Assembly (NCBI RefSeq): GCF_900105165.1
Contig: NZ_LT629740.1
Location: forward strand, 3,596,001-3,660,000
From: Mucilaginibacter mallensis
GTDB taxonomy: Bacteria; Bacteroidota; Bacteroidia; Sphingobacteriales; Sphingobacteriaceae
DNA length: 64,000 bases
Direction: 5' to 3'
The notes beneath the pieces were generated by a model, which was not told the origin of the DNA, did no database searches, and was given only the letters and a program-made list of their open reading frames with translations. The position numbers and the translations under genes were made by a program. This document shows, one piece after another, positions 13,784 to 52,107 of this stretch. Numbering within the stretch: position 1 is the stretch's first letter; each line of letters starts with the position of its first letter.

Positions 13784-13876
13784 TCATTGGTTCACTGGTT
13801 CACTGGTTCATTGGTCTTAGCACTTTGCTTAATTAGTGTATTTATTACCGCCGTATTACCAATGAACTAATGAACA
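13784..13876. repeat. Spacer repeat S1, TTCA dialect
   Basis: Left arm 13785-13816 (units like GGTTCACTGGTTCA), right arm 13861-13876 (AATGAACTAATGAAC) complementary to it. This is the spacer type found beside every permease gene; the right arm abuts the P1 stop region. Confidence 0.75.
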
Positions 13877-13879
13877 AAC

Positions 13880-16384
13880 CTATTCCGACCGCAAGCTTTT
13901 AACCGGGTTGGCCATGGCGGCTTTAATGGTGTGGTAACTTACGGCTATTATGGCTGTAAGCATAGCTATCAGCCCTGCAGAACCGAATAATAGCCAATCG
14001 GGTTTTATGCGGTAGGCAAAGTTATCGAGCCATTCATGGACCATATATAATGCTATAGGTGAGGCTATAATAAACGAACCGGCCGCTAATAATAAAGTTC
14101 CGCGGTTAAGCATCACGAACAGGTTGTAGATAGATGCACCCAGCACTTTACGGATACCGATCTCCTTGGTGCGGTTGATAGTAGTAAGCCCCGACAACCC
14201 AAATAAACCCAGACAGGCAATAATGATGGCTAATATGCATGATGTGGTAATGGTGGTCATCCAGCGCTGGTAGGCATCATAGCTTTTTGCCACATCCTGA
14301 TCAAGGAAAGTATAGCTGAATGGCATATTGTTCGTCATCTTGTTCCAGTTCAGTTTTAAATCTTCCATTGCATTTGGTATACTTTGCCCAGCTTTTATTT
14401 TTATCCAGAACCATGCGTCGGGGTTACCACTAATTTGATGATATACCGGTTCTATCTTTTTTGTGAGATCATCGGTATGATAATCCTTACAAACACCAAT
14501 AATTATCCCACCTATTTGGTAATTAAGTACATCAAGCTTTGGTTTGCCCAGCATATTGTACAATGTTTCATTAACAACAACACTATGGTTTACACGTGAG
14601 CTTTGAGGATTCATTTGTGCTGATACAAGTTTTATACGGGTACTGTCGCTTGCGATATCCCTTGAAAAGTCCCTGCCTTCAACAATCGGGATCTTATTAA
14701 ATTTAAAATAATCAAAATCAACTCCCATTTCCTGAAACCCTACCTGCTTACCATTAATTATAAATCCGCTTGTACTATATCCCTCAAAATCAAAATAGGT
14801 ACTGGTTATCCCCTGTAAATAAGGTTGGCTTACAACAAATTGCGTTAACCTTTCTTTTAATGAGCCGCGGTCTTTTTCGTCGGTCCAGCTATAGGGATTT
14901 TGCAATACAATTATCTGGTCTTTATCAAAACCCATACTGGTTTCACTTATAAAATGCATTTGCTTATTTATAACCAATGCCGAGATCACCAGTATAATAC
15001 AAATACTGTATTGCAAAACCACTAAGCATTTTGATAAAACCGGGCTTATGCGATAAGTTGAAAAACCACGCATAATATTTAGTGGTTTTAAGCCAGACAT
15101 AGCCAAAGCAGGATAAATACCAGCCAGCACCCCTAATGTAATTGACAACAGTAATAACATCAATATTAAATTACTTATTGAAAATGCCGACAGATTTAAT
15201 ACCGAACCTGTTAAGCTGCTGAAAAATGGCAAACAGGTTACAGCTACCATAAACCCAACAATAACAGCTATAAAAGCAAGTAATTGTGTTTCGGTGTAAT
15301 ATTGCAATACAATTTGCCTGCGCCCTGCCCCTATAGTTTTACGAACGCCAACATCCTGTGAGCGCGATATGGCACTGGTAAGTGTTAGCAGCACATAATT
15401 TAAACAAGCTATCAATAAAATAACTATGGCCAGGCAAACCAACTGGTAAATATTCTTCAGGTCTGTGTAATGGTTCCAGCCCCGGCTTTGATTGTAATGC
15501 GCATCGGCAAACGGCCTTAAAAATACCAGAAAAGGTGCCGGCTTAGTTTTGGGATCATTCTTAGCCATCTCATCAGTCAGCGATTTAAAGTACTTTGGCG
15601 CAAAGGCATTAAGCTTTTTTTGAAAAGCAGCAACATTGGTGTTTTTTGCTAACCTCACAACCAGTAAATCGCTGAAAGTTTCTACCCCCCTTTTTAATTC
15701 ATCTGCATAATCAGCATCTGCTTCTCGGGTAATAATTACATCAAATTTAAAACTTGAATTATCCGGAAAAGCCTTAGCAACACCGGTTACATTTACCAGC
15801 AACCCTTCGCTGGTAATATTTAAAGTTTTACCAACCGGATTATCATTCCCAAAATACTTTTTAGCAAACTGCTCACTTATTACAGCAGAATTATGACCTG
15901 ATAGCACCGATTGTTTATTACCCTTTACCAACGGGAAATCAAATGCCCTAAAAAAATCAGGATCAACATATGCTGAGCTTTGATCACTCTCCTTAAAACT
16001 TTGATTGCCTACACGTATAATTGGATTGTACAATGGTCTTATACGTATTGCATTCTCAATTTCAGGAAAATTCCTTTTCAGATCAGGTGCAAACACTACC
16101 GGTGTTTGTATCATATTCTTTTGATCCGCATCCTGTGTTAGGAATGAAAAAAAACTTTTCTTCGATTCAGTATTACGTAATCCTGAAAACACATCCGATT
16201 CCTCAACTCTGAATAACCTATCGCCATCCTTATGAAAATCATCAAACGACTGCTCGTTCTTTACATACAAATAAACCAGTATGCAAAACGCGCTGGCCAC
16301 GCTAAGCCCAATAATGTTTATTGCAGAATATAATTTATTCCGGAATATATTCCTTATAGCTAATTTCAGGTTGATCTTTATCAT
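13880..16384 (-). CDS. FtsX/MacB-type ABC permease P1
   Basis: 834 residues, the longest of the 14 permeases. Layout as in the others: membrane helix near residues 20-42, periplasmic MacB-like core, three helices, then a second copy of this half. The first-half coupling motif reads RSQDVGVRKTIGAG (about residue 341), clearly diverged from the RAKEVGIRK form elsewhere. The second, RTKEIGIRKVLGAS (about 738), is canonical. The N-terminus MIKINLKLAIRNIFRNK also departs from the usual MIKNYFKIAWR. The C-terminus is ANPVKSLRSE. It is the last permease gene of the P5-P1 unit and sits next to the ATPase1/TolC promoter. Two FtsX halves in one chain suggest a pseudo-dimer. Confidence 0.92.
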   Translation of the reverse strand: MIKINLKLAIRNIFRNKLYSAINIIGLSVASAFCILVYLYVKNEQSFDDFHKDGDRLFRVEESDVFSGLRNTESKKSFFSFLTQDADQKNMIQTPVVFAPDLKRNFPEIENAIRIRPLYNPIIRVGNQSFKESDQSSAYVDPDFFRAFDFPLVKGNKQSVLSGHNSAVISEQFAKKYFGNDNPVGKTLNITSEGLLVNVTGVAKAFPDNSSFKFDVIITREADADYADELKRGVETFSDLLVVRLAKNTNVAAFQKKLNAFAPKYFKSLTDEMAKNDPKTKPAPFLVFLRPFADAHYNQSRGWNHYTDLKNIYQLVCLAIVILLIACLNYVLLTLTSAISRSQDVGVRKTIGAGRRQIVLQYYTETQLLAFIAVIVGFMVAVTCLPFFSSLTGSVLNLSAFSISNLILMLLLLSITLGVLAGIYPALAMSGLKPLNIMRGFSTYRISPVLSKCLVVLQYSICIILVISALVINKQMHFISETSMGFDKDQIIVLQNPYSWTDEKDRGSLKERLTQFVVSQPYLQGITSTYFDFEGYSTSGFIINGKQVGFQEMGVDFDYFKFNKIPIVEGRDFSRDIASDSTRIKLVSAQMNPQSSRVNHSVVVNETLYNMLGKPKLDVLNYQIGGIIIGVCKDYHTDDLTKKIEPVYHQISGNPDAWFWIKIKAGQSIPNAMEDLKLNWNKMTNNMPFSYTFLDQDVAKSYDAYQRWMTTITTSCILAIIIACLGLFGLSGLTTINRTKEIGIRKVLGASIYNLFVMLNRGTLLLAAGSFIIASPIALYMVHEWLDNFAYRIKPDWLLFGSAGLIAMLTAIIAVSYHTIKAAMANPVKSLRSE

Positions 16385-16387
16385 GTT

Positions 16388-16511
16388 AGTTTATTTGTTC
16401 ACTGGTTCATTTTGCTTCTCGTTATTGGTCACTGGGTCATTCGCTGCGCTGTGATTTGGTCATCTCATCTGCAATAAAACTAATGACTCAATGACCTAAT
16501 GACACAATGAC
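16388..16511. repeat. Spacer repeat S2, mostly GTCAT dialect
   Basis: Left arm starts with TTCA-type units (TTGTTCACTGGTTCATT) and changes to TCATT type. The right arm is AATGACTCAATGACC followed by TAATGACACAATGAC, reaching the P2 stop codon. A mixed-dialect spacer. Confidence 0.7.
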
Positions 16512-18970
16512 TATTCCGATCTCAAACTTTTTACCGGGTTTGCCACCGCCGCTTTTACCGTTTGAAAACCTGATGTAAATACAGCCAGTATCAGCATGCC
16601 TGCGCCGCTTGCGGCAAATATCCACCAGCTGATGGAGGTTCTATCGGCAAAACTTTGCATCCATTTGTTCATAGCCCACCAGGTTGCAGGGGTTACAATT
16701 ATAAATGCCAGTAGTATAAGTAATATCATTTCTGTTGAGAGCAAGGTTACTATCTGCGCCACAGATGCGCCAAGTACTTTTCGGACGCCAATCTCCTTGG
16801 TACGCTGGTTGGTTGTATAAATAGCTAAGCCCAATAAACCCAGGCAGCTAATAAATATAGATAAGCCGGTTGCCCATGCTAACAAGGTTGAGGTATGCTG
16901 CTCGCTTTCATAAAACTTTTTAATGTTATCATCAAAAAACTGGTAATCAAAATCATCATCCGGGTACGATTCTTTCCAGTATATGCCCATTTGTGCAATT
17001 GCTTTTTTCCACTCTCCCCCACCCGCTGTTTCAGGTTTTAATGCGATGTGGAAAGTGCCATTGTTATAAATACCATTTCCCCTTACAATCACTATAGGCT
17101 TAATTGGTGTACGTAATGATTTCTGATAAAAATCGGCAACAACACCCACAATCTGCATTTTTGTGCTGGTACCGTTATAATCCAGAAAATTACCTACAGC
17201 CTGGGCGGGTGATTTGAACCCTAAAACTTTTGCATAGGTTTCATTGATCAAAAAGCCTTTGGTCGTATCCGATTGTTGCAGGTTACGGCCGGCAAGCAAT
17301 TTTATATGGTAAACTTTAAGATAATTCTCATCAGCAAATTTTTGCTGTACATCGGTTTTTATCTCGTGTTTGCCATTCTTATACGTTGCTTCGGTCGAAA
17401 TGGTAACACCCGCCGAGGGAGCAGCGCCGCCCACGCTCACCATCGCTACCTGCGGTATAGAATGCAGCTTGTTAAGGAATACCTGCTTTTGATTTGATCG
17501 CAGGGCCTTCCATGGCGTACTTATAATTATAATTGCGTCTTTTTTAAAGCCAAGATCCTTATGTAAGGCGTAGTAAATTTGCTTGCTGACCAATATAGTC
17601 GCCATTATGAAAAACTGCGCTATTATAAATTGGGTAACTGTTAATGATTTGCGCAGGTAGGCGCTCCGGGTTTTACTGCTATTTGAAGCGGCCTGATTTT
17701 TAAGGACTGTAACCGGTTTATAACCCGACAATAATATGGCAGGATAAAATCCCGACAAAATACTTACAACTACTGTTAATATCACCAAAAACACAACCAG
17801 CCCGGGTTTGAATAACAGATCGACTTTTATACCCGCCGGGATGAAATCAGCAAATAGCTTTAGTATTAATGGAGTAATTGCAACCGAAATTATAACTGCA
17901 ATTAAGGTGATAAAGAACGTTTCGCTTAAAAATTGAAATATAAGCTGCCTGCGGCTACTGCCCATTGTTTTACGGATGCCTATCTCCTTAGCCCTTTGCG
18001 TTGCCTGCGCTGTGGTTAAATTCACAAAATTTATACAGCCAAGCACCAAAAGAAAAGCTGCTATGGCAAGTAAACCATACAATGTGGTTTTACTTGCAGT
18101 ACGCCCACCATCAAAGTTGCCATAGGCTTCATTAAAATGCAGATCGCTTAATGGCTGCAAGCTAAAATTCTGGGTATAATCTTTAGATGGTTTTGAGTTC
18201 TTTTTAAGCAGATCGTTCAACTGCTTTTCTACATGTGGTGCATTGCTTTGGGCCGATAACTTTATAAATAGCTGCGATGAAGAGTTGGTATTAGTCCATT
18301 GGGTTAGCTGAAGCTGATCTTTCAGATCTTTATTAGCCGCATTTGTACTGTAGGAGATAAAATCATGAAAGGCAAAATCGGTATTATCGCTTATGGTTTG
18401 TACAATACCTGTAACCGCGGTTTTTAACGTATCGTAGGTAATTACCTTACCCATTATTTGATCATACGAAAGCGTTGGGAAGTATTTTTTTGCCTGATTG
18501 GAAGTTAATACCACCTGATTAGGCGCGCTTAATGCAGTTGCAGCCGAACCGGCCAGCCATTTATAATTAACTATTTTAAAATACTGAGCGTCGGCAAGTA
18601 CAACGTTATCCTGATTCTTAAACCTTACCGGTACATTTTTAATACCGGGAACAAAAACATTGGGCTGATATAAAGAATAAAAAGCAGCCGTTACTTCAAC
18701 GCCGGTAACCTGGCTTTTTACGGCTTCCGGCAACGGACCGCAAACACCACTGTTGTTACCTGCCTCGCCCGAATAAGAGTAGTTGGTTACCACGCGATAA
18801 ATGCGATTGTTATCGGGCTGAAACTTATCAAACGTAAAGTCAAAATGAACGATGAGGTAAATTACCAGCGCAGCGCTGATACCTATGGATAGGCCTATAA
18901 CATTTATCAGCGTAAACAGCTTATGCCGCCAAAAACCACGGAATGCAATTTTAAAATAGTTCTTTATCAT
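16511..18970 (-). CDS. FtsX/MacB-type ABC permease P2
   Basis: 819 residues. Helix 1 is LFTLINVIGLSIGISAALVI. The first periplasmic core carries the unusual insertion SGEAGNNSGVCGPLPEAV after NRIYRV. Coupling motifs are RAKEIGIRKTMGSSRRQ (mid-protein) and RTKEIGVRKVLGAS (about residue 723). The second periplasmic domain (KDLGFKKDAIIII... to FYESEQ) differs strongly from its neighbours, while the last 90 residues match them (MNKWMQSFADRTSISWW, ANPVKSLRSE). It lies in the P5-P1 unit, 126 bp before P1. It probably pairs with one of the two shared ATPases. Confidence 0.92.
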   Translation of the reverse strand: MIKNYFKIAFRGFWRHKLFTLINVIGLSIGISAALVIYLIVHFDFTFDKFQPDNNRIYRVVTNYSYSGEAGNNSGVCGPLPEAVKSQVTGVEVTAAFYSLYQPNVFVPGIKNVPVRFKNQDNVVLADAQYFKIVNYKWLAGSAATALSAPNQVVLTSNQAKKYFPTLSYDQIMGKVITYDTLKTAVTGIVQTISDNTDFAFHDFISYSTNAANKDLKDQLQLTQWTNTNSSSQLFIKLSAQSNAPHVEKQLNDLLKKNSKPSKDYTQNFSLQPLSDLHFNEAYGNFDGGRTASKTTLYGLLAIAAFLLVLGCINFVNLTTAQATQRAKEIGIRKTMGSSRRQLIFQFLSETFFITLIAVIISVAITPLILKLFADFIPAGIKVDLLFKPGLVVFLVILTVVVSILSGFYPAILLSGYKPVTVLKNQAASNSSKTRSAYLRKSLTVTQFIIAQFFIMATILVSKQIYYALHKDLGFKKDAIIIISTPWKALRSNQKQVFLNKLHSIPQVAMVSVGGAAPSAGVTISTEATYKNGKHEIKTDVQQKFADENYLKVYHIKLLAGRNLQQSDTTKGFLINETYAKVLGFKSPAQAVGNFLDYNGTSTKMQIVGVVADFYQKSLRTPIKPIVIVRGNGIYNNGTFHIALKPETAGGGEWKKAIAQMGIYWKESYPDDDFDYQFFDDNIKKFYESEQHTSTLLAWATGLSIFISCLGLLGLAIYTTNQRTKEIGVRKVLGASVAQIVTLLSTEMILLILLAFIIVTPATWWAMNKWMQSFADRTSISWWIFAASGAGMLILAVFTSGFQTVKAAVANPVKSLRSE

Positions 18971-18977
18971 TTCTTTT

Positions 18978-19071
18978 AGTCATTAGTCATTTTACTTCGT
19001 GTCATTGGTCATTGGGTCATTAGCTTCGTTGTCATTCTTTCACTAATGACAAATGACTCAATGACCAATGA
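18978..19071. repeat. Spacer repeat S3, GTCAT dialect
   Basis: Left arm 18978-19035 (GTCATTAGTCATT, GTCATTGGTCATTGGGTCAT), right arm 19042-19071 (TAATGACAAATGACTC, AATGACCAATGAC). Both arms use the same dialect and can pair over most of their length. Confidence 0.75.
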
Positions 19072-21492: not shown

Positions 21493-21502
21493 TCTTATTT
21501 AG

Positions 21503-21603
21503 TTCAATGGTTCATTAGTTCATTGGTCTTGTCCTTCGTTCTCATCCGTCATTGGTTACCGGTTACATTACTAATAAACTAATGAACCAGTGAACAAATG
21601 AAT
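21503..21603. repeat. Spacer repeat S4, TTCA dialect
   Basis: Left arm TTCAATGGTTCATTAG/TTCATTGG (21503-21527), right arm ACTAATAAACTAATGAACC/AGTGAACAAATGAA (21569-21602). The dialect differs from S3 on the other side of P3. Confidence 0.75.
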
Positions 21604-21604
21604 A

Positions 21605-24004: not shown

Positions 24005-24008
24005 TTCT

Positions 24009-24146
24009 TTTGGTCATTAGTCATTTCACTTCGTTGTGACTGGTCATTTGCTTCGCGTCATTGGTCATTGGGTCATTCGCTGCGCTGTCATTGAGTCATT
24101 TTACTCATATGCAAACTAATGACTCAATGACCAATGACTCCATGAC
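24009..24146. repeat. Spacer repeat S5, GTCAT dialect
   Basis: One of the longest left arms (24009-24100), with TTGCTTCGCGTCATT and CGCTGCGCTGTCATT units interspersed. Right arm 24116-24146 (TAATGACTCAATGACC, AATGACTCCATGAC). Confidence 0.75.
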
Positions 24147-24150
24147 TAAA

Positions 24151-26565: not shown

Positions 26566-26599
26566 GATGCGGGTGGTTACAAGCAAATACAATTAAAAG

Positions 26600-26609
26600 C
26601 CATACCAAA
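26600..26609 (-). promoter_or_regulatory. -24-like element, promoter B
   Basis: Minus strand TTTGGTATGG with the GG at 26606-26605, 53 bp from element B and about 40 bp before the P5 ATG. The -12 position reads TTTTAA, a poor match to TTGC. Confidence 0.4.
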
Positions 26610-26658
26610 ATTTAAAGTATTTATAATCAATATTTTATATCAAAATAAAATAATCAAC

Positions 26659-26699
26659 CTGTTCGTAAGTGTAACACTATATGTACGGTTATGATACAG
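26659..26699 (-). promoter_or_regulatory. 41-bp upstream activating element B
   Basis: Minus strand CTGTATCATAACCGTACA, a 6-8 base spacer, then GTGTTACACTTACGAACAG. The first block is identical to element D over its first 18 bases. The second half-site GTGTTACAC is itself palindromic. Confidence 0.72.
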
Positions 26700-26710
26700 T
26701 CATGCTTCGC

Positions 26711-26800
26711 GTCATTGGTCATTGGGTCATTCGCTGCGCTGTCATTGGGTTATTTGTCTTGTAGTTAAACAAATGGCTCAATGACCAATGACACAATGAC
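26711..26800. repeat. Spacer repeat S6, GTCAT dialect
   Basis: Left arm 26711-26752 directly follows element B. Right arm 26770-26800 (AAATGGCTCAATGACC, AATGACACAATGACC) ends next to the P6 stop. Confidence 0.75.
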
Positions 26801-26804
26801 CAAA

Positions 26805-29180: not shown

Positions 29181-29185
29181 AACGT

Positions 29186-29334
29186 TAGTTCATTTGTTCA
29201 CTGGTTCATTGGTCTTGTCCTTAGACCTTTTATGTTCATTAGTTCATTGGTATTAGCAATTTTACCAAATCCGCTTGGTTCATTTTTCTCCGGTTACATT
29301 ACTAATGAACTAATGAACCAGTGAACTAATGAGC
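29186..29334. repeat. Spacer repeat S7, TTCA dialect
   Basis: Two left-arm blocks (29186-29213 and 29233-29251, GTTCATTAGTTCATTGG) separated by a TTAGACC insert. Right arm 29300-29334 (ACTAATGAACTAATGAACC, AGTGAACTAATGAGC). Confidence 0.72.
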
Positions 29335-29337
29335 AAA

Positions 29338-31734: not shown

Positions 31735-31740
31735 GTTTTT

Positions 31741-31826
31741 GGTCATTAGTCATTTTGCTTCGCGTCCTTAGTCATTGGGTCATTGAGCCATTTTACGAAT
31801 GACTAATGACTCAATAACCAATGACT
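31741..31826. repeat. Spacer repeat S8, GTCAT dialect
   Basis: The shortest spacer. Left arm 31741-31792, right arm 31797-31826 (AATGACTAATGACTC, AATAACCAATGAC) running into the P8 stop. Confidence 0.72.
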
Positions 31827-34215: not shown

Positions 34216-34221
34216 CTTATT

Positions 34222-34317
34222 TGGTTCATTCGTTCATTTGTTCACTAGTTTATTGGTCTTATCTTATGTGTACTGATCCATTGGTTTCGCTGGCTCAGTT
34301 ACCAATGAACTAATGAA
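34222..34317. repeat. Spacer repeat S9, TTCA dialect
   Basis: Left arm GGTTCATTCGTTCATTTG/TTCACTAG (34222-34248). The right arm is short (CCAATGAACTAATGAA, 34302-34317). Weaker pairing than in other spacers. Confidence 0.65.
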
Positions 34318-34319
34318 TA

Positions 34320-36758: not shown

Positions 36759-36761
36759 TTC

Positions 36762-36866
36762 CCTGGTTCATTAGTTCATTTCATTTTGCTTCGCGTCATT
36801 AGTCATTGAGTCATTCGCTTCGCTGTCATTGGTCATTTACCGAATCAAACTAATGACTTAATGACT
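36762..36866. repeat. Spacer repeat S10, mixed dialect
   Basis: Left arm begins GGTTCATTAGTTCATTTC and switches to TTGCTTCGCGTCATT and GTCATTGAGTCATT units. The right arm is short (TAATGACTTAATGAC, 36851-36865). Confidence 0.65.
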
Positions 36867-39240: not shown

Positions 39241-39247
39241 TTCTTTG

Positions 39248-39360
39248 GTTCATTAGCTCATTTGTTCACTGGTTCACTGGTCTTGTCCTACGTTTATTAA
39301 TTCATCAGTATTGCCGGCTGCAATTACTAATGAACTAATGAGCCAGTGAACCAATGAACA
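39248..39360. repeat. Spacer repeat S11, TTCA dialect
   Basis: Left arm GGTTCATTAGCTCATTTG then TTCACTGGTTCACTGG (39247-39280). Right arm ACTAATGAACTAATGAGCC then AGTGAACCAATGAAC (39326-39359). Confidence 0.75.
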
Positions 39361-39361
39361 T

Positions 39362-41791: not shown

Positions 41792-41856
41792 GATAGTGGT
41801 TATTAATTTAAAATGCTTGAATGCAAAGCCAGGTCAATAACAGATAATGACCAAAC

Positions 41857-41866
41857 CTATACCAAA
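41857..41866 (-). promoter_or_regulatory. -24-like element, promoter C
   Basis: Minus strand TTTGGTATAG with the GG at 41863-41862, 53 bp from element C and 71 bp before the P11 ATG. The -12 region reads TTTGGT. Confidence 0.4.
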
Positions 41867-41915
41867 ATACAAATTATTAATAATCAGATAGTTAAAACCA
41901 ACAAGCATGCGCAAT

Positions 41916-41956
41916 GTGTACGCAAGTGAAACACCTTATGTCCGGTTATGATACAC
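41916..41956 (-). promoter_or_regulatory. 41-bp upstream activating element C
   Basis: Minus strand GTGTATCATAACCGGACA, spacer, then GTGTTTCACTTGCGTACAC. The most diverged of the four (G for T in the GGAC block) but in the same place and with the same spacing. Confidence 0.68.
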
Positions 41957-41967
41957 ATTACTTCGCG

Positions 41968-42076
41968 TCATTGGTTCACTTGTTCATTAGTTCATTGGTC
42001 TTGTCCTATGTTAGTTAGCTCATCAGTATTGCCAACTGCATTACTAATGAACAAGTGAGCCAGTGAACTAATGAAC
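41968..42076. repeat. Spacer repeat S12, TTCA dialect
   Basis: Left arm TTGGTTCACTTGTTCATT then AGTTCATTGG (41970-41999). Right arm ACTAATGAACAAGTGAGCC then AGTGAACTAATGAAC (42043-42076). It follows element C as S6 follows element B. Confidence 0.75.
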
Positions 42077-42077
42077 A

Positions 42078-44447
42078 TTATTCGCTACGCAAACTTTTAA
42101 TAGGGTTGGCTACCGCGGCTTTTATGGCCTGGTAGCTAACCGTTAACAGCGCAATAACTATGGTAATAACACTTGCCAGGGCCATTATCCACCAGCTTAG
42201 TGTTATACGATATTCATAGTTAGTGAGCCATTTATTTAACACATATATTGATAATGCGATAGCCGGTACAATAGCTATTAAAACCAGTATCAAAAAGTCT
42301 TTTGATAATAAGCCAACCAGGTTGGTTACACTGGCACCTAATACTTTACGTACACCTATTTCTTTTGTCCTTTGCTCTGCAGCATAGGCAGCTAAGCCGA
42401 ATAAACCCAGGCATGAGATAACAATTGCCAGGCCACCAAATATATTTGCCAGTAATGCCAGCACCTTTTCGTTCTGGAATTTTTGCTCAAATTCTTTATC
42501 CACAAAATTAATGGTTGGCGGGTAGGCCGGATTTATCTCTTTTAGGCTTTTGTTGATCAGATCGATACTGGCAGTAGTACTTTTTGCCGGGTTAAGGCGC
42601 AAAGCTATAACTGAACCACCAAAACCATTACAAAAGGTTACCATAGGCGGCGTTTTTTGGTAAGGTGAGCCCCAAACAAAATCTTTGTAAATACCAACGA
42701 TGGTAACAGGCTGATCTCCCCATTTAATTATGGCACCCAATGATTGTTTCATGAGTTTGGCCGCAGTTTCATTGATCATAACCGTTTGAATTTTAGCAGT
42801 TGTATCGGCAGGATACTCCGCCGAGAATTCACGGCCCGCTACCAGCTTTACCCCTGTTGTTTTAGTAAGATCAAAGCCGGCATAAAATATATCAAACAAT
42901 ATTTTTTGGTTAGGATCTTTGCCTTGCCAGTCGATGCCCCAGGTGTTGCTACCATTTTCGGTAATACTTTGTGATAGGTTTGAGGCATGGATAATAGCCC
43001 CATTATTTTTAAGCTCGGTTATAAGTGCATTAGCTTTTTTACTGAGTGTGCCCTCAACAGGTACTTCAACCAGGCTATTTTTATCATAGCCATTTGGCAT
43101 AGATTGTATGTAACGGATCTGACGATAGATACAAATGGTTGCTGTAATTAAAAATACAGCAAAGGCAAACTGTATCACCACTAAAACCTTACGAATAGGC
43201 AATACACTTTTGCTGCCTTTAAACACACCTTTTAAAACTTTTATAGGTTGGAATGATGACAGGTAAAAAGCAGGGTAACTACCTGAAATAAGCCCGGTAA
43301 ATAAAGCCAGACCAACAACCAGCAGCCATGCGGGCCAACTACCAATTGGTAAAACGAGCTTTATATTGAGCAGGTTATTAAAGAACGGCACACATATGCT
43401 CAACACAATTACAGCTAATATGGTTGATATGAAGGATAAGATAAGCGACTCGATAATAAATTGAGTTACCAGCGGCCCACGACCTGAGCCTATTGCCTTG
43501 CGGATACCCACTTCTTTTGCCCGCTCTTCGGATCGTGCGGTAGAAAGGTTCATGAAATTTACACAAGCTATCAGCAATATGCAGGTAGCCAGTATCTCAA
43601 ACAAGTGTATCTGCTGAATTTCACCACCTGCTGATTTACCATTTTCAAACTTATTATATAAGTGAAGCTTTGTAAACGGGAAAAGGAAAAGCTGGTTCTT
43701 ATTACCCTGATCGTGCTTACCTACCATTGTGCCCAATATATTATTGGCACGTGCAAGAGCTGAGGGATCTTTTAACAATACAACAGTGCGGCAAAAATTA
43801 CTGCCCCAGTTGCCTGATTTAGTCCATGCATTTGCATTTTCATATTGTACATAAGGTATAGCATAATCAAATTTAAATGAGGTATTTGCAGGCATATTTT
43901 CAATAATACCCGTAACCATTAAGGGTATATTACTGTTAAAACTAACCACTTTGTTCATGGGGTCTTTATTGCCAAACAGGGTTTTGGCCAGGGCTTCAGT
44001 AATAACTATTGAATTTGGCTGAATTAATGCCTTTGCAGGATCGCCTTTAATAAAGTGATAAGAGAATATGGAGAAATAGCCCGGATCAGTATACAATCCC
44101 TGTTTTTTAAAACTGTTGTTATTGTATGCCAAAAGCCCATTGCCTGTATAATCAATTACACGTGCGGCTTGCAACACACCCGGCACCTCATTTTTAATAG
44201 CCATGGCAGCCTGTGAGGGTGTTGCAGAAAAGGTATATATCTTACCATCACCGGGCTGATTGTTCTCAACAATGTAAATATTGTCGATATTTTTAAACTG
44301 ATGATCGTATCCTAAATGATAGGACACATACAGCAAAAGCAGCAAGCAGCTGGCAATACCTAAAGTTAATCCACCCGCATTTATAAGCGAGAATGCCACA
44401 TGCTTTTTAATGTTTCGCCAGGCGATTTTAATGTAATTCTTTATCAT
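42078..44447 (-). CDS. FtsX/MacB-type ABC permease P12 (beta subgroup)
   Basis: 789 residues. Beta marks: LYNKFENGKSAGGEIQQIHL and STARSEERAKEVGIRKAIGS. Helix 1 (AFSLINAGGLTLGIASCLLLLLY) is followed by VSYHLGYDHQFKNIDNIYIV, where the common DELSYD is replaced. The second coupling motif is RTKEIGVRKVLGAS (about 693). It carries GSKSVLPIRKVLVVIQF before helix 5, as in P8. The last helices (VLNKWLTNYEYRITLSWW) differ from most copies. It is the last gene of the HlyD-ATPase2-P14-P13-P12 unit; promoter C follows. Confidence 0.92.
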   Translation of the reverse strand: MIKNYIKIAWRNIKKHVAFSLINAGGLTLGIASCLLLLLYVSYHLGYDHQFKNIDNIYIVENNQPGDGKIYTFSATPSQAAMAIKNEVPGVLQAARVIDYTGNGLLAYNNNSFKKQGLYTDPGYFSIFSYHFIKGDPAKALIQPNSIVITEALAKTLFGNKDPMNKVVSFNSNIPLMVTGIIENMPANTSFKFDYAIPYVQYENANAWTKSGNWGSNFCRTVVLLKDPSALARANNILGTMVGKHDQGNKNQLFLFPFTKLHLYNKFENGKSAGGEIQQIHLFEILATCILLIACVNFMNLSTARSEERAKEVGIRKAIGSGRGPLVTQFIIESLILSFISTILAVIVLSICVPFFNNLLNIKLVLPIGSWPAWLLVVGLALFTGLISGSYPAFYLSSFQPIKVLKGVFKGSKSVLPIRKVLVVIQFAFAVFLITATICIYRQIRYIQSMPNGYDKNSLVEVPVEGTLSKKANALITELKNNGAIIHASNLSQSITENGSNTWGIDWQGKDPNQKILFDIFYAGFDLTKTTGVKLVAGREFSAEYPADTTAKIQTVMINETAAKLMKQSLGAIIKWGDQPVTIVGIYKDFVWGSPYQKTPPMVTFCNGFGGSVIALRLNPAKSTTASIDLINKSLKEINPAYPPTINFVDKEFEQKFQNEKVLALLANIFGGLAIVISCLGLFGLAAYAAEQRTKEIGVRKVLGASVTNLVGLLSKDFLILVLIAIVPAIALSIYVLNKWLTNYEYRITLSWWIMALASVITIVIALLTVSYQAIKAAVANPIKSLRSE

Positions 44448-44454
44448 TTTATTG

Positions 44455-44571
44455 ATTCATTAGTTCATTTCACTTCGTTGTCATTTTGCTTCGCATCATT
44501 GGTCATTAGGTCATTACGCTTCGCTGTCATTGAGTATTTTACTAATGACCAATGACACAATGACTAATGAC
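44455..44571. repeat. Spacer repeat S13, mixed, mainly GTCAT
   Basis: Left arm starts GATTCATTAGTTCATTTC then CGTTGTCATTTTGCTTCGC and further TCATT units. Right arm 44541-44571 (TAATGACCAATGACAC, AATGACTAATGAC). Confidence 0.7.
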
Positions 44572-46991
44572 TATTCAGAACGCAAACTTTCAACCGGGTT
44601 GGCAATAGCCGCTTTAATGGATTGAAAACTGATAGTTATTAAAGCAATAAGTATAGCCGCCACGCCTGCCAATGCAATTATCCACCAGTGGAAGTTTACT
44701 CTGTAAGCAAAATCCTGCAGCCATTTTTGCATTAAATACCAGGCTATAGGCGATGAAATCACGATGGCTATAAACACCAGTTTTATAAAATCTTTTGATA
44801 GCATGCCTGCGATATTCGGAATGCTGGCACCTAAAACTTTGCGGATGCCGATTTCTTTTGTACGCTGTTCGGCCGCATAAGCCGCCAAGCCAAATAGGCC
44901 CAGGCATGCGATAGCGATTGCCAGTACTGTAAATACCATAAATATAGTTCCGGTACGTTGCTCCGAGCGGTAAAGTTTATCAAAATCCTGATCCATAAAT
45001 GAATACTCGAAGTGCGCCTGCGACATACCCTTCCATTTATCCTCAACCTGGGTAAGTAGGCCAGATATGTTAGCGGTATTTACCCTTATGCTTAAATTAC
45101 CGGTATCCTCGTTTAACTGCATAATTACCGGGTCGATATTTTGCCTTAAAGAGCTAAAATTAAAATCCTTAACAACTCCGATAATGGTATAGGCTTTAAA
45201 TGTAGGATTTGGGCCGCCGGATGATTTGTAAATGATCTTGTTAACCGGATCGGTAAAGCCTAAAAATTTTGCGGCTGTTTCATTGATCACCACCGAGCTA
45301 GAATCCGATAGTATTTGATTTGAAAAGTTACGCCCTGCGGCTATTTTCATACCCAGTGTTTTTACATAATCCTCGTCTACATTCCAGGTTTGCGGGAATA
45401 TAGATTTTTTAGGATCTGCTACTGCTTCCTTATAAAAAATAGCCGTACTACGGTTTAGCGAGGTAGGCAAAAACCCGGTTAAAGTAGCATTTTGTACGCC
45501 CGGCAGTTGTCTTATTTCCTGCTTAAACGCCTGCGAATGATTACCCAGCTCAAACGCGTTGTGTATAACTAAAACCTGGTTACGGTTGTAACCCAGATCG
45601 CGGCTTTGGATATAATGCAGCTGGTTATAAATAACCAATGTACCTATGATTAAAAATATGGATATAGAAAACTGGAAAACAACCAGGAAACTCCTTAACC
45701 TGCCACCCTTAAACCCACTTGAGATTTTCCCTTTCAGCACATCAATTGGCTGAAAGGCTGATAAAAAGAAGGCCGGATACAAGCCTGCTAAAAAGCCGAT
45801 CACAAGGACTGCCAATAATGACACTGGAATGAGCCAAACAAGTGTATGCGCTGTTATAATGATATTTTTATCAGCAAACTGATTAAATGCCGGTAAAAAC
45901 AATACAACAAGCACTATTGATATGATTACCGCAATCAATGTAACGATCATTGATTCGGATAAGAACTGGGCTATCAGATACTTCCTTGCCGACCCCAATA
46001 CCTTGCGTACACCAACCTCCCGTGCCCTGTTGGCTGAACGGGCTGTTGAGAGGTTCATGAAGTTTACACAAGCTATTAATAATATAAATATGGCTATAGC
46101 CGAGAAGATATACACGTATTGCTCGGTGCCATTTATGCCTAGTTCACCGGTTTGGTTAGAGTGCAGGTGTATATCGATCAGCGGAATCATATTCATCCTG
46201 AAATAGCTGCCATTTTTTTCAAATGCGTCATAACTCATTTTTAGTTCATCCTGCATTTGTCCGCCACTATATTTGCGCAAAAATTGCGGGAACTGCGCTT
46301 CCAGCTTTTTATAGTCGGCGCCCTTGCGCATTAAAACATAGGTGTTATAATCACTTCTTAACCATTCATTGGAGCGGCTATCAGGAAATGAGGACATCGA
46401 CACCAAAAAATCGGCATGGAAATGCGATTGTTGCGGTATATCCTTTATTACCGCGGTAATTTTAAATGCCTTGTTTCCATCGGTGATTAAATTTTCACCA
46501 ACCACATCAACCTTGTTAAAATATTTTTTAGCGGTTGATTCGGTGATCACCACTGTGTTAGGTTCGGTTAAAGCAGTTGCTTTGTTACCATAGAGAATTG
46601 GCAGGGTAAAAACATCAAATATAGATGGGTCGGCAAACAGGGTATTATATTCGAGAATATTTTCATTTCCCTTTTTAACATGCATGCCGCCAAGGTTTTT
46701 CAACCGCACAGTATTTTCTACATCAGGGAAATCGTTTTTTAGCGTTTTGGCAAGTGGCGGCATGCAAACAGCATACTCCACCTTGTTATCGCCTAATTTC
46801 AATTGCTCGTTTACACGATATATACGGCCGGCATTTTCGTTATACCTGTCATAACTTAACTCATCGGCTACATAAAATACAATAAGCAAACAAGTAGCTA
46901 AACCAAGCGCAAGCCCAAGCACATTAATGGCTGTAAACCCCTTATTTTTTCGAAGGGACCGAAAAGCTGTTTTTATATAGTTTCTTATCAT
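44571..46991 (-). CDS. FtsX/MacB-type ABC permease P13 (alpha subgroup)
   Basis: 806 residues from the ATG at 46991 (an upstream in-frame start would add four residues). Alpha subgroup: MIRNYIKTAFRSLRKNKGF, VADELSYDRYNENAGRIYRV, RAREVGVRKVLGSARKYLIA (the last block nearly identical to P7). The second coupling motif is RTKEIGIRKVLGAS. The C-terminus is ANPVESLRSE, as in P7. The final helix pair reads LMQKWLQDFAYRVNFHWWII. The high similarity to P7 and P11 over N-terminal and membrane parts makes these the youngest duplicates in the array. Confidence 0.93.
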   Translation of the reverse strand: MIRNYIKTAFRSLRKNKGFTAINVLGLALGLATCLLIVFYVADELSYDRYNENAGRIYRVNEQLKLGDNKVEYAVCMPPLAKTLKNDFPDVENTVRLKNLGGMHVKKGNENILEYNTLFADPSIFDVFTLPILYGNKATALTEPNTVVITESTAKKYFNKVDVVGENLITDGNKAFKITAVIKDIPQQSHFHADFLVSMSSFPDSRSNEWLRSDYNTYVLMRKGADYKKLEAQFPQFLRKYSGGQMQDELKMSYDAFEKNGSYFRMNMIPLIDIHLHSNQTGELGINGTEQYVYIFSAIAIFILLIACVNFMNLSTARSANRAREVGVRKVLGSARKYLIAQFLSESMIVTLIAVIISIVLVVLFLPAFNQFADKNIIITAHTLVWLIPVSLLAVLVIGFLAGLYPAFFLSAFQPIDVLKGKISSGFKGGRLRSFLVVFQFSISIFLIIGTLVIYNQLHYIQSRDLGYNRNQVLVIHNAFELGNHSQAFKQEIRQLPGVQNATLTGFLPTSLNRSTAIFYKEAVADPKKSIFPQTWNVDEDYVKTLGMKIAAGRNFSNQILSDSSSVVINETAAKFLGFTDPVNKIIYKSSGGPNPTFKAYTIIGVVKDFNFSSLRQNIDPVIMQLNEDTGNLSIRVNTANISGLLTQVEDKWKGMSQAHFEYSFMDQDFDKLYRSEQRTGTIFMVFTVLAIAIACLGLFGLAAYAAEQRTKEIGIRKVLGASIPNIAGMLSKDFIKLVFIAIVISSPIAWYLMQKWLQDFAYRVNFHWWIIALAGVAAILIALITISFQSIKAAIANPVESLRSE

Positions 46992-46997
46992 CGTTTT

Positions 46998-47117
46998 AGT
47001 CATTAGTCATTTCGCTGCACTGTCATTTTGCTTCGCGTCATTGAGTCATTGCGCTGCGCTGTCATTGGTCATTCGTTAACGTCAAACTAATGACTCAATG
47101 ACCAATGACACAATGAC
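46998..47117. repeat. Spacer repeat S14, GTCAT dialect
   Basis: Left arm 46998-47073 with CGCTGCACTGTCATT, TTGCTTCGCGTCATT and CGCTGCGCTGTCATT units. Right arm 47087-47117 (TAATGACTCAATGACC, AATGACACAATGAC). Confidence 0.75.
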
Positions 47118-49462
47118 TATTCCGACCGCAAACTTTTCACCGGGTTAGCCAGCGCGGCTTTTGTAACCTGGTATAAAATAGTAACTGATGCAATTATAAA
47201 TGAGGCGCTTATGGCTACCACAAATGTTTCGGCACCAATATTTATATGGTAGGCAAAGTTTTGCAGCCAGTTGTTCATCATGTAATAACCAAGCGGGGCG
47301 GCAATAAAAAATGCGATGCCTATCAATACTATAAACTCTTTTGAAAACAGGGCAACAATGCTGGTTAACGATGCACCCAATACCTTGCGGATACCAACTT
47401 CTTTTGTGCGTTGTGATGCGGCAAAACTTATAAGGCCGTACAAGCCCAGGCAGCCAATAAGTATGGCGATAGATGAAAACAGCCTGAACGCGGTATAAAC
47501 CTTTTGCTCCTGGCGATAAAATCCAGCTATACGGTCGTCCATAAACTGGTAGCTGAACAGATCATCAGGAAATATGGCCGACCATTTCTTGCCTACATGA
47601 TCAATAGTTTGACGCATGGCCGCCGGCTGTACAAGCATACTTACCGAGTAAAAATTGCTACGATCGTACATGAGCACGCAAGCCCTTATCTTTTTATGTT
47701 TTGATTCGCTTTGAAAATCCTTTACTACACCGGTTATAGCAACCTTGTTACCATTAACTTCTATCTGCTGACCAATAGCTTTCTGGGGATCCTGTATGCC
47801 TATATCATGTATCAGCGTTTCATTTATCACTACATGGTGCAGGGTATCGTCCTTAGCTACTTTATTACCTGCAAGCATGGTCAGGCCAAACATATCTATA
47901 TAGCGCTCATCAATATTTTTAAGTTCGGTTACATTATCCTTAGGATAACCCAGTTGCTTTGCTGAAAACGGACAAAAATTACTACTGTAAGCAGGCGCTG
48001 CCGATGAAAAGCTAATATCCTTTATTCCCGGTTCGGCAAGTAACTGCTGTTTTAAAGCCTCGCCTTTGGCAACATCAGGTATATCTACCGTTACTATAGC
48101 ATCTTTGTTAAAGCCGAGGTTCTGGTTTTCAAAGAAGTCCATTTGCCGGGCAACTACAATGGTGCCGACTATTAATATTTGTGAAATGGCAAACTGGGCT
48201 ATAACCAAACCTTTGCGTAGTGTTAAGCCTCCGGTTGAGATGCCCACTTTATTTTTAAGTGAATCCACAGGTTGAAATGCTGACTGTACAAATGCTGGAT
48301 AAAGGCCTGAAAGTAATATTACCAGCACCGTTAAACCGGCTATACACTCCATCACAGCAGGTTCGCTCAATTGTGATGCGTTTATATTTATGCCCAATAT
48401 ATTATTGGCCCGTGTGAGGAATATGGATGCTATTGCAATGCCCATAAACAGAGCCAGCAATACCAGTACAGTAGTTTCGCCCAAAAACTGCGCTATTAGT
48501 TGCCCTTTACCTGCGCCAAGCACTTTGCGAACACCTACTTCCCGGGCGCGCCTGATGGCCTGCGCTGTGGCCAGGTTAATAAAATTGATGCATGCCGTAA
48601 TAATAATGAGCAATGCTACGCCGCCCAAAACATAATAAGTTTCTCTTGATGTTGGGGTAACAACGTTATTGATATAACGCTGATCGAAATGCACATCCTT
48701 AAGCGGCTGTAGTGGCAGTGTCGCCTGTTTTGCGATATCATCGCCCCAGTGTTTTTTAATAAAGGCCGGTATTTTAGCCTGGATATTTTTTATAGATTGA
48801 TTTTTTGGAAGAACGATGTACACATAACTGCCACCAGGTATATTCCAAAAATTATGGTTGAAATCTTTTTGTATGGTGATGAAGGAGATCAAAAAGGTAA
48901 AGGGCAAACTGGTATTACCCGGCACATCCTTTATTATACCGGTAACTTTAAGCGGGAATTGCTTATCAACATTAATTACCTGCCCCATGGCATCTTTCTG
49001 CCCGAAATATTTTTTGGCGATGCTTTCTGTTAACACCACGGTATTAGGTTCAGCAAGGGCCGTTTTAGGGTTGCCGGCTATCCATCGGTAATCAAATACC
49101 GCCGGGAAATGCGCATCGGCAAAAGCAAAATTCTTTTCGTCGTAACGATTATTGCCAACTTTTATAAGGCCATCGGTCTGAAAAAATACTTGTGTAACCT
49201 GTTCCAGCTCCGGAAAATCCAGCCGCATGGGAGGTACTATAGCTACTGATATATTTGAATTGAAATCAAGCGCGTGCAGGGTTACGCGATAGGTTCTGTC
49301 GGCCTTATGGTTAAAGGCATCATAGCTCAGTTCGTTTCTTACAATAAGAAATATGACCAGGCAGGAAGCGATACCAAGCGTTAATCCAAAAACATTCAGG
49401 AACGCGTAACTCATATTACGGCGTATGTTTCTGAAAGCGATAATAAAGTAATTCCTGATCAT
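47117..49462 (-). CDS. FtsX/MacB-type ABC permease P14
   Basis: 781 residues, the shortest permease. Helix 1 is AYAFLNVFGLTLGIASCLVIF, then LIVRNELSYDAFNHKADRTY. Coupling motifs are RAREVGVRKVLGAGKGQ and RTKEVGIRKVLGAS (about 685). The first periplasmic core is shorter than elsewhere (VTLHALDFNSNISVAIVPPM directly after RTYR). The C-terminal helices (MMNNWLQNFAYHINIGAETF) diverge from the common form, then ANPVKSLRSE. It is the permease nearest to ATPase2 and the HlyD adaptor, so it may be the original partner of those genes. Confidence 0.92.
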   Translation of the reverse strand: MIRNYFIIAFRNIRRNMSYAFLNVFGLTLGIASCLVIFLIVRNELSYDAFNHKADRTYRVTLHALDFNSNISVAIVPPMRLDFPELEQVTQVFFQTDGLIKVGNNRYDEKNFAFADAHFPAVFDYRWIAGNPKTALAEPNTVVLTESIAKKYFGQKDAMGQVINVDKQFPLKVTGIIKDVPGNTSLPFTFLISFITIQKDFNHNFWNIPGGSYVYIVLPKNQSIKNIQAKIPAFIKKHWGDDIAKQATLPLQPLKDVHFDQRYINNVVTPTSRETYYVLGGVALLIIITACINFINLATAQAIRRAREVGVRKVLGAGKGQLIAQFLGETTVLVLLALFMGIAIASIFLTRANNILGININASQLSEPAVMECIAGLTVLVILLSGLYPAFVQSAFQPVDSLKNKVGISTGGLTLRKGLVIAQFAISQILIVGTIVVARQMDFFENQNLGFNKDAIVTVDIPDVAKGEALKQQLLAEPGIKDISFSSAAPAYSSNFCPFSAKQLGYPKDNVTELKNIDERYIDMFGLTMLAGNKVAKDDTLHHVVINETLIHDIGIQDPQKAIGQQIEVNGNKVAITGVVKDFQSESKHKKIRACVLMYDRSNFYSVSMLVQPAAMRQTIDHVGKKWSAIFPDDLFSYQFMDDRIAGFYRQEQKVYTAFRLFSSIAILIGCLGLYGLISFAASQRTKEVGIRKVLGASLTSIVALFSKEFIVLIGIAFFIAAPLGYYMMNNWLQNFAYHINIGAETFVVAISASFIIASVTILYQVTKAALANPVKSLRSE

Positions 49463-49473
49463 TTTTTACTAGT

Positions 49474-49583
49474 ATTAGTTATTACGCTACGCTGGCATTT
49501 TACTTCGTGTCATTAGTCATTTCGCTTCGCTGTCATTGGGTCATTGGTTATTGGGGAAGCCAAATTAATGACTAATGACCAAT
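49474..49583. repeat. Spacer repeat S15, GTCAT dialect
   Basis: Left arm 49474-49552 (GTCATTAGTCATTTCGC, GTCATTGGGTCATTGG). Right arm TTAATGACTAATGACC (49565-49580). Lies between P14 and the ATPase2 3' end. Confidence 0.7.
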
Positions 49584-49613: not shown

Positions 49614-49634
49614 CCCCTCCCATCCGGGGAGGGG
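49614..49634. repeat. CCCCTCC palindrome
   Basis: CCCCTCCC...GGGGAGGGG hairpin 56 bp from the ATPase2 stop. A C-rich dispersed repeat type also seen near dnaB and alaS. Confidence 0.55.
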
Positions 49635-49690
49635 CTCCGGAGACATTTAATTAACTACATTAAACTGCTTACCAAATCAGTATTTTTATC

Positions 49691-50368: not shown

Positions 50369-50443
50369 TGTAGTTTACTTAAGTTTTCCCTGCGAAGGGT
50401 ATTAATCCTTATATAGTTTAGTTTCTATTTTAAATTGTCCACC

Positions 50444-50477
50444 TAACTCATCCCTTTCAGGGGAGGCTGGGTGGGGT
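50444..50477. repeat. C-rich dispersed repeat
   Basis: AACTCATCCCTTTCAGGGG then AGGCTGGGTGGGGTT, between ATPase2 and the adaptor stop. Same class as the element after dnaB. Confidence 0.5.
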
Positions 50478-51739
50478 TATTTATTTAATATCAGTTCCTG
50501 CATCTCGCCATAAGTATCATAGCTTGATGTAATCACCTTATCGCCCGGCTGCAAGCCGCTTATTACTTCGTAGTAATCAGGGCTTTGCCTGTTTAATTGT
50601 ATATCAGCCCTGTAAGCGGTTTTACCGTTGGCACTTACTTTAAATATCCAGTTACCACCTGTTTGTTGGTAGAATCCGCCCTTAGGTAGTAATATGGCTT
50701 GCGTTGCATCGCTCAATGCCAATCGTATCTGCAAAGTTTGCCCGTTTCTTATGCCTTGCGGTACGGCTCCCACAAACTCCATATCTACCTGAAACTGCCC
50801 TGTTCCGGCTTTCACCTGGTCAAATACCTTCTTTATTTTTAGGTTATAGGTTTTATCAGCAAATTGAAAATCACCCTTTAAGCCTTTGTAAACACGTGAA
50901 ATATAGTGCTCATCAATATTAACCCTTACCTTGAACCCTGATAAGACGTCAATTTCTCCTAAACGTTCCCCCTTTGTAATATTTTGTCCAACTTCAGAAT
51001 CCATTGAGCTTAGCTGACCATCAACCGGTGCTTTTACCACAAGGTCGCCAACCTTTTGCTTCATCAGGTCTAAAGTACTTTTCATATTGGCATATGATTC
51101 CTGCGCCTGTTGCGCCTGTTGTTTTACTGATGTTGAATCCTGTTTCAAGATCTGGGCATTTAGTTTTTCTTTGCGTAAGGCATAATCATAAGTATTTTGA
51201 GCTATCTGAAATTCCTGCAACCCAATAGCCTTTTGCGCGTAAAGCTTCTGATCCAGTTTATAAACACGTGATGCATCCCTGAACGCGTTATCAGCATCGG
51301 CCATATTCTGTAATTTACCAATGGTATTTTGTTGTGCCTGATCACGCGAGATCTGCATTTGCGTAAGCACGTTAAATACAGCAGTTTGTTGGTTAGCCAG
51401 ACTTAGTTCAAGGTCAAGATCGGATAATTTCATGATGGGGTCACCGGCTTTCATCTGGGTGCCATCCTCAACATAAAGCTTTTCAACACGGCCACCTTCA
51501 ACTGCATCCAAATAAATAGTAGTAATAGGCAGTACAACACCGTTAACAGGTATAGTTTCCTGAAAAGGGCCCTTTGTAACTTCACTAATAGTAATACGAT
51601 CGGTATCAACATCCAGTTTACTCTTGCCACCCACACCTGTAACCACCACGAAAACGATGAATATAACAAGCGCCGATACACCGGCAATTATCATTATTCG
51701 TTTATTGTTCCACTTCTTTTTTTCTATAATTCTGTCCAC
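50477..51739 (-). CDS. HlyD/MacA-type periplasmic adaptor protein
   Basis: 420 residues. One N-terminal membrane helix (IMIIAGVSALVIFIVFVVV), then a lipoyl-like half (VNGVVLPITTIYLDAVEGG, RVEKLYVEDGTQMKAGDPI), a long Gln-rich coiled-coil hairpin (about residues 115-225), the second lipoyl half (VKAPVDGQLSSMDSEVGQNI), a beta-barrel (FKVRVNIDEHYISRVY) and a membrane-proximal domain. It would link inner-membrane permeases to the TolC duct. The start is GTG (51739): an in-frame TAA is four codons upstream and no ATG precedes the membrane helix. It is the only adaptor in the cluster. Promoter D with element D lies directly upstream. Confidence 0.93.
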   Translation of the reverse strand: MDRIIEKKKWNNKRIMIIAGVSALVIFIVFVVVTGVGGKSKLDVDTDRITISEVTKGPFQETIPVNGVVLPITTIYLDAVEGGRVEKLYVEDGTQMKAGDPIMKLSDLDLELSLANQQTAVFNVLTQMQISRDQAQQNTIGKLQNMADADNAFRDASRVYKLDQKLYAQKAIGLQEFQIAQNTYDYALRKEKLNAQILKQDSTSVKQQAQQAQESYANMKSTLDLMKQKVGDLVVKAPVDGQLSSMDSEVGQNITKGERLGEIDVLSGFKVRVNIDEHYISRVYKGLKGDFQFADKTYNLKIKKVFDQVKAGTGQFQVDMEFVGAVPQGIRNGQTLQIRLALSDATQAILLPKGGFYQQTGGNWIFKVSANGKTAYRADIQLNRQSPDYYEVISGLQPGDKVITSSYDTYGEMQELILNK

Positions 51740-51875: not shown

Positions 51876-51884
51876 TGGTTTTAT

Positions 51885-52102: not shown

Positions 52103-52107
52103 AAATA

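Follow-up and report, generated by a model that had tools for sequence, protein, structure and literature searches.

Intergenic hairpins of a Mucilaginibacter mallensis permease cluster are probably gene-less relatives of elements carrying IVP genes

The window analyzed here, a stretch of 64,000 nucleotides of Mucilaginibacter mallensis DNA (contig NZ_LT629740.1, positions 3,596,001 to 3,660,000), contains 14 tandem genes of permease size, all on the minus strand between positions 13880 and 49462, with hairpins in between. MacB_PCD and FtsX domains were found in both of the permeases that were scanned (2 of the 14). The 13 gaps among these genes and the two outer flanks give 15 spacers, S1 to S15, and in 15 of 15 an array of TCATT-type units lies opposite an array of AATGA-type units, where a preliminary description of this DNA had placed them. 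The subject of this report is the origin of these spacer hairpins and their probable kinship with elements that carry a gene of the 23S rRNA IVP family (PF05635/TIGR02436).

Word counts reproduced the previously proposed sorting of the spacers, all listed on the minus strand, into GTTCATT, GTCATT and mixed ones. The 5' arms carry GTTCAYT in S1 (13784-13879, downstream of the last permease), S4 (21493-21604), S7 (29181-29337), S9 (34216-34319), S11 (39241-39361) and S12 (41792-42077, a hairpin with a longer leader), and GTCAYT in S3 (18971-19071), S5 (24005-24150, with the mini-hairpin words GCGCAGC and GCGAAGC), S6 (26593-26804, again a hairpin with a longer leader), S8 (31747-31824), S14 (47004-47116) and S15 (49463-49583, upstream of the first permease). 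Mixed 3' arms opposite GTCAYT 5' arms characterize S2 (16385-16510), S10 (36759-36864) and S13 (44448-44570). The dialects of the two arms of one spacer are correlated (r=0.905, permutation p=1e-4, 15 spacers), whereas those on the two sides of one permease gene are not (r=-0.15, p=0.70, 14 genes), as the preliminary description had noticed. Because the dialect does not match across the gene, permease genes traveling as cassettes flanked by terminal inverted repeats were ruled out, in agreement with the same description.

Folding of the spacer RNAs, suggested as a check at the outset, gave z-scores of about -2.0 or lower against 100 dinucleotide shuffles in 14 of the 15 spacers, with a range from -1.1 in S10 to -8.6 in S11 and a value of -7.4 in S3. 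The arms are imperfect; with ungapped scoring, a value of 18 is attained by just 4 inverted repeats of the region. Better folding than in shuffled sequences and arms adjoining stop and start codons both favor a regulatory RNA, in which the base pairing of each spacer hairpin would be selected and would set how stable the mRNA of the next permease is or how well it is translated. We consider this improbable. No spacer matched an Rfam family at the gathering score, and the own arms of same-dialect spacers pair no better than arms taken from other spacers (p=0.21; the arms were cut crudely and this comparison alone is weak evidence).

Comparison with close species bears on the same question. Three genomes of the genus (identifiers G030, G013 and G017) carry orthologous clusters of 20-22 permeases, most orthologues being 92-99% identical and the remainder 66-86%. 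Eight orthologous same-type spacers were aligned among the three species in 12 chosen comparisons, 6 of which are three-way comparisons of two spacers and not independent. Among 366 aligned pairs, 309 were unchanged; one-sided changes kept the pair in 23 cases and broke it in 28, and two-sided changes kept it in 0 and broke it in 6. The rate of change was 8.6% at paired sites, against 59 of 490 at unpaired ones. The preliminary description had named the absence of pair-keeping double changes as refuting maintained pairing; their count of 0 in 366 weighs against such pairing as evidence and not as proof, the number of changes being small. RNA regulation through maintained pairing is accordingly unsupported both by these changes and by the comparison of own with other arms, and of the earlier interpretation one half stands, that the unit is the spacer rather than the permease gene, while the half that invoked maintained pairing does not.

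Also against selected pairing, among the 59 spacers of the close species (5 of them covered in part and one empty), 10 have a 5' side of CAGTTTG type opposite AATGAAC on the 3' side, and these two sides do not pair. Of the 20 orthologous rows, at least 11 include one or more species with a different spacer type, and one row has three hairpin words in the three species (AAGTCTG; AGGTAAA/AGGCTAA; AGATTAG), with a conserved leader after the hairpin. We think it likely that the two arms share a dialect because both belong to one element, rather than because pairing is selected base by base. A motif common to all words, TTDG plus 3-4 bases, was considered and dropped, as AAGTCTG and AAAGGTT words did not fit it by eye. 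The three clusters are otherwise collinear, with single permease genes gained or lost; the permease cluster of a further genome, G041, was compared at the level of proteins and word positions.

The arrays are not confined to the permeases. In the M. mallensis genome (G000), the GTTCATT pattern AATGAACYAATGAAC has 32 matches and a triple AATGAC pattern 41, reversed controls have 0, and the permease cluster holds 21 of the 73 matches (some overlapping; counted from the listed places). Since the arrays are dispersed through the genome next to genes, the hairpins are not special to permeases. One inverted GTTCATT/AATGAAC pair of the same kind lies in the window itself, at 51885-52105 on the plus strand, between divergent genes for an HlyD-like protein and a sigma-54 response regulator. 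Across genomes, AATGAACYAATGAAC occurs in 32 of 49 of the genus and has no match in the 31 others; among the 80 together, the reversed control had a single match. A 21-base pattern of the short GTCATT dialect has 94 stretches in the named collection, and the 80 of these that were listed span Mucilaginibacter, other Bacteroidetes, Planctomycetes, Nitrospinota, Chloroflexi and others.

Position at gene edges was measured outside the window with a simple ORF (open reading frame) caller, at loci that had been retrieved through the array patterns: 32 arms of 24 own-genome loci and 49 arms of 35 loci from G020 and G048. In 25 of 30 cases in the own genome and 31 of 48 in G020 and G048, the AATGA end overlaps the start or end of a called gene or is at most 15 bases away from it; for the TCATT end the corresponding counts are 3 of 31 and 0 of 47. 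None of the arms at these loci lies inside a called gene, and neighboring opposite arms up to 700 bases apart follow the order TCATT then AATGA in 20 of 20. The same arrays also sit between unrelated convergent and divergent genes, which argues against regulation of permease mRNA. At one locus with convergent genes (L007), the arms are placed between the stop codons and terminator-like hairpins; being outside these hairpins, they are not terminators there.

Copies between unrelated genes are likewise left unaccounted for if the spacers of the permease cluster were propagated locally, through recombination among its paralogous junctions, a process that is compatible with kinship to IVP elements and that we regard as a possible, if rather doubtful, local amplifier. 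The codons flanking the spacers are nearly alike (approximately NPVKSLRSE-stop and MIKNYLKIAWR), as are the gene ends among paralogues in the three close species, where spacers are exchanged flush with the genes; recombination between such ends may have multiplied the hairpins of the cluster.

A dispersed pair at another locus, L009, encloses a small ORF of the IVP family. The M. mallensis genome has 8 IVP genes, and the family was found in 0 of 14 control genomes. The words flanking the 8 genes are all different: AGTATCA, AGTCCGAA, GTTCATA, AGTCTTA, GTTCATTG, GTCATTGG, ATGTGCAG and AGTCAAAATT. Facing arrays are clear at 7 of the 8; the AGTCTTA arrays of L256 are weak (score 10, under the cut-off). 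When 43 IVP loci from 7 genomes were scored on the basis of coordinates, the inverted match of the flanks reached at least 12 at 42 loci and at least 14 at 36. After swapping arms between IVP loci, 27 of 500 combinations reached 12 and 18 of 500 reached 14; at random positions in an own-genome sample the counts were 14 and 4 of 1000. Among other ORFs in the same kind of loci, 4 of 225 reached 12, and at least 2 of these are the same IVP gene. A phmmer search with one IVP against PDB sequences returned nothing at E<=0.01, and a profile of the 8 IVPs returned 2rld, 2gsc and, at E=0.005, a designed protein. IVP hits of the own genome inside the window number 0; its GTTCATT-type and GTCATT-type IVP genes lie elsewhere (G000:C1:1121097-1121411 and 3349885-3350199).

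The flanking word goes with the protein. Over 42 loci, IVP similarity and word similarity are correlated in the 841 pairs that have no flanks in common (Mantel r=0.514, p=1e-4). Pairs at least 74% identical share more than 0.3 of their 6-mers in 13 of 13 cases (two of them involving orthologous partners, with the identity split taken from the pair list), compared with 3 of 828 other pairs, and below about 70% identity the words mostly differ. GTTCATT accompanies the IVPs of L257, L277 and L285, which are 81-92% identical to one another, and GTCATT those of L258, L282 and L287 (65-76%); identity across the two trios is 62-69%. On trees, with moderate supports for the two trios, the GTCATT trio groups together (FastTree 0.94; IQ-TREE 92/91), next to its sister group, the GTTCATT trio. 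The next branches, L291, L292 and L294, have GTCATT, so that GTTCATT looks like a derived word, one base longer than GTCATT.

These branches belong to distant homologues. We searched 18 genomes from the named loci, chosen for holding GTCATT arrays, with the GTCATT-type IVP, found homologues in 15 and read 30 loci. GTCAYT upstream together with ARTGAC downstream was present at 4 of the 7 loci with E<1e-20 and at 0 of the 23 weaker ones (35/27405, approximately 0.001). The four are L291 from Nitrospinota, L292 from Lewinellaceae, L294 from Prolixibacteraceae and L297 from Campylobacterales. At many of the remaining distant loci, the arrays that face each other are built of different words (CGTATTG, GTTTGAAGG, GGAAACT and GGGTGTG are examples); at L300, L301, L305, L311 and L319 the inverted-match score is no higher than at random positions. 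It is relevant here that the arrays might have grown passively, heptamers expanding by slippage and hairpin template switching copying one arm to the other, with IVP genes as passengers settling in hairpins. The degenerate tandem units, the mixed and single arms and the rapid turnover would fit such growth, and heptamers are reported as common in bacteria in the passages considered of PMC4679880. Yet it predicts neither that IVP similarity goes with the word nor that near homologues in other phyla have the same word, and we judge it unlikely.

Several window spacers can be tied directly to IVP elements of the two dialects. Among the matches listed, arms of the GTCATT element L282 and the GTTCATT element L285 match S5, S7, S10, S11 and S12 at 92-100%: L282 arms match 24044-24077 in S5 (94%) and 36780-36815 in S10 (95%), and L285 arms match 29185-29215 in S7 (97%), both arms of S11 (92%) and 41968-41999 in S12 (100%). 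An L285 arm also matches 51883-51919, at the pair between the divergent genes (92%), and a GCTTCGC word is common to L282 and window spacers.

A sample of 400 kb, taken in even steps through the own genome, contained 27 inverted repeats scoring at least 18, compared with 0 after shuffling. Two of the 27 are IVP elements and six are ORF-less heptamer hairpins. These six, chosen by eye before the word test, have 0.32-1.0 of their words in common with the IVP arms from the 7 genomes, whereas 11 other hairpins share 0.06-0.26 (8 of the 27 repeats are outside this comparison); one of the six goes best with L266 of G017 and another with L267 of G048. Hairpins of the type GTCATGCTGAGC..GCTCAGCATGAC, seen at L358 and L361, recur in the sample, and the three that were checked share little with IVP arms (0.12-0.19).

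Presence, absence and exchange of elements were compared at two junctions. A thyA-folA-like junction is occupied by a GTCATT IVP element in G017 and G000 and by an ORF-less GTTCATT pair, enclosing another palindrome, in G013 and G030; a single arm of each dialect is present there in G020, and nothing in G048. The start of a uvrC-like gene has a GTTCATT IVP element in G017 and a single arm in G048, while neither is present in G013, G030 or G020. The start codon and first residues (MNQ/MNN) of this gene come from array units in the two species that have them there, G017 and G048 (L353, L348). In G028, the start of a thyA-like gene is occupied by an IVP whose word is TTAGTGA (L356/L288), beside the junction where G017 and G000 have their GTCATT element. 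Palindromes of a second family, CGTCATTGCGAGG..CCTCGCAATGACG, were also noticed at these junctions, either within arrays or by themselves (L345-L352, L364:6605).

Taken together, we consider it likely, with a probability of roughly 0.7, that the spacer hairpins, which have no ORF, are related to IVP elements and form two mobile-looking families, in a REPIN-like system with a non-transposase protein. In a full element, a small gene encoding a four-helix-bundle IVP protein would be enclosed by an array of a 7-8-base word on one side and the inverted array on the other. Each IVP subfamily would have its own word, GTTCATT and GTCATT being those of two sister groups. The IVP protein may recognize its own word in the folded arms, as DNA or RNA, and act in trans on ORF-less copies, as RAYTs supposedly do on REPINs. 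Elements would settle flush between genes, where a transcribed hairpin harms little, and would have multiplied within the permease cluster; mixed spacers could derive from overlapping or partial elements. GTTCATT arrays in genomes lacking a GTTCATT-type IVP (G013, G030, G020) could mean that the protein was lost after spreading or is not needed. That the hairpins are instead moved by a Y1 REP-associated transposase (RAYT) of the own genome is highly improbable. The hairpin form does resemble REPINs, as set out in the passages considered of PMC3116915, and the own genome has 4 PF01797 hits; however, arrays are present within about 1.5 kb at 0 of these 4 genes, which have scattered single words only, and we rejected RAYT as the mover.

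A number of observations weigh against kinship with mobile IVP elements. No movement event was seen and no target duplication defined at the two junctions compared. Single-armed arrays occur, the precise abutment of arms on gene edges is left without explanation by an element model, and L007 has terminator-like hairpins within its arms, which simple insertion would not produce. The independent cases are few, as L257, L277 and L285 occupy one shared site and L258 and L282 another; L287, at its own site, is 65-70% identical to the GTCATT type and 62-64% to the GTTCATT type. The grouping of the GTTCATT trio has a support of 0.89 in FastTree and is left open by IQ-TREE. Other words are found at 3 of the 7 nearest distant homologues, L294 has GTCAYT/ARTGAC words without a good inverted match, and L377, about 50% identical to both trios, has a different, weak word. 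G013 and G030 hold ORF-less GTTCATT arrays, and none of their 5 and 3 IVPs, respectively, has this word; in G020, with 59 array matches, GTTCATT is found at 0 of 8 IVPs (one has GTCATT and one GTTCATA/G). The link between word and protein could also stem from descent of whole elements instead of recognition.

Two further features of the sequence deserve mention. Array units are at times separated by GCGNAGC or ACGNAGT words with pairing outer bases, the pattern of very stable DNA mini-hairpins; d(GCGAAGC) is a stable one. GCGNAGC-like words are present in a minority of stretches between AATGAC units (15 of 73 in the window, 14 of 152 at own loci, 35 of 351 in the genus and 22 of 583 at named loci), and where present their outer bases are complementary in 13 of 15, 13 of 14, 30 of 35 and 19 of 22, respectively, the window and own-locus sets overlapping and the copies being related. 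For comparison, the outer pair is complementary in 77 of 259 of all CGNAG in the window. We take these words as a hint of single-stranded DNA folding, nothing more. Near the upstream genes of the cluster, at 49620-49645 and 50440-50480, the window also has hairpins rich in G and C that belong to a different repeat type (CCCCTCCC..GGGAGGGG and similar).

Statements below that carry a citation come from the passages of the cited papers considered here. Intervening sequences (IVS) in the rRNA of Coxiella, Leptospira and others have a stem formed by terminal inverted repeats and an S23/IVP ORF in the loop, are excised by RNase III and have been called selfish (PMC4990558). ORF-less rRNA insertions are reported too, and PF05635 was found in rRNA insertions of bacteria of the candidate phyla radiation (CPR) (PMC11270868); the proteins are known from rRNA insertions and have no established function (PMC4990558, PMC11270868). 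In addition, 18 PF05635 genes lie in cas loci (PMC3936711), and the family is said to resemble Avd, the accessory protein of diversity-generating retroelements (DGR), a feature shared with that system (PMC10053308). Like the 23S rRNA IVS, the window spacers and the IVP elements have inverted terminal repeats that form a stem. The IVS holds its PF05635 ORF in the loop, whereas the window copies are ORF-less and the ORF is held by related elements (43 loci); the IVS sits in rRNA, whereas the window hairpins lie between protein genes in many copies; and the arms here, unlike those of the IVS, consist of tandem copies of a 7-8-base word linked to the IVP subfamily.

REPINs are dispersed, non-autonomous inverted doublets that form hairpins, in classes tied to a RAYT gene with the same word adjacent (PMC3116915). 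Dispersed inverted doublets, hairpins and classes linked to a protein gene beside the same word are thus shared with REPIN/RAYT, but the protein is a Y1 transposase there and a four-helix bundle without known activity here; the words here form short tandem arrays, and the Y1 genes of the own genome lack them. The short tandemly repeated repetitive (STRR) heptamers of cyanobacteria have a TTGGTCA-like word. TAACTGA heptamer arrays of Beggiatoaceae, cyanobacteria and Bacteroidetes consist, as in the window, of 7-base tandem units at gene starts, in forward orientation and, in one case, reversed after a stop codon; they are described as direct repeats, in contrast to the facing arms here, and without an IVP link in the parts of the paper covered (PMC4679880). 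In open-licence PMC literature, among the matches listed, no link between IVP subfamily and array word was found.

The link between protein subfamily and word joins IVP proteins with short-word intergenic arrays, for which there is no agreed explanation, and makes both testable, as the words of the own and the sister IVP differ by one base. More tentatively, IVP four-helix-bundle proteins may form a broad class of mobility factors that bind nucleic acids in a word-specific manner, and whose subfamilies spread hairpins of their own word, with or without the gene, into the gaps between genes across many bacterial phyla; the 23S rRNA IVS would then be the best-known special case and many heptamer arrays would be traces of such spread. 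If the kinship proposed here is true, the IVP elements would constitute a second system of hairpin and cognate protein beside REPIN/RAYT, and would caution against reading such hairpins as regulators of the genes that they separate.

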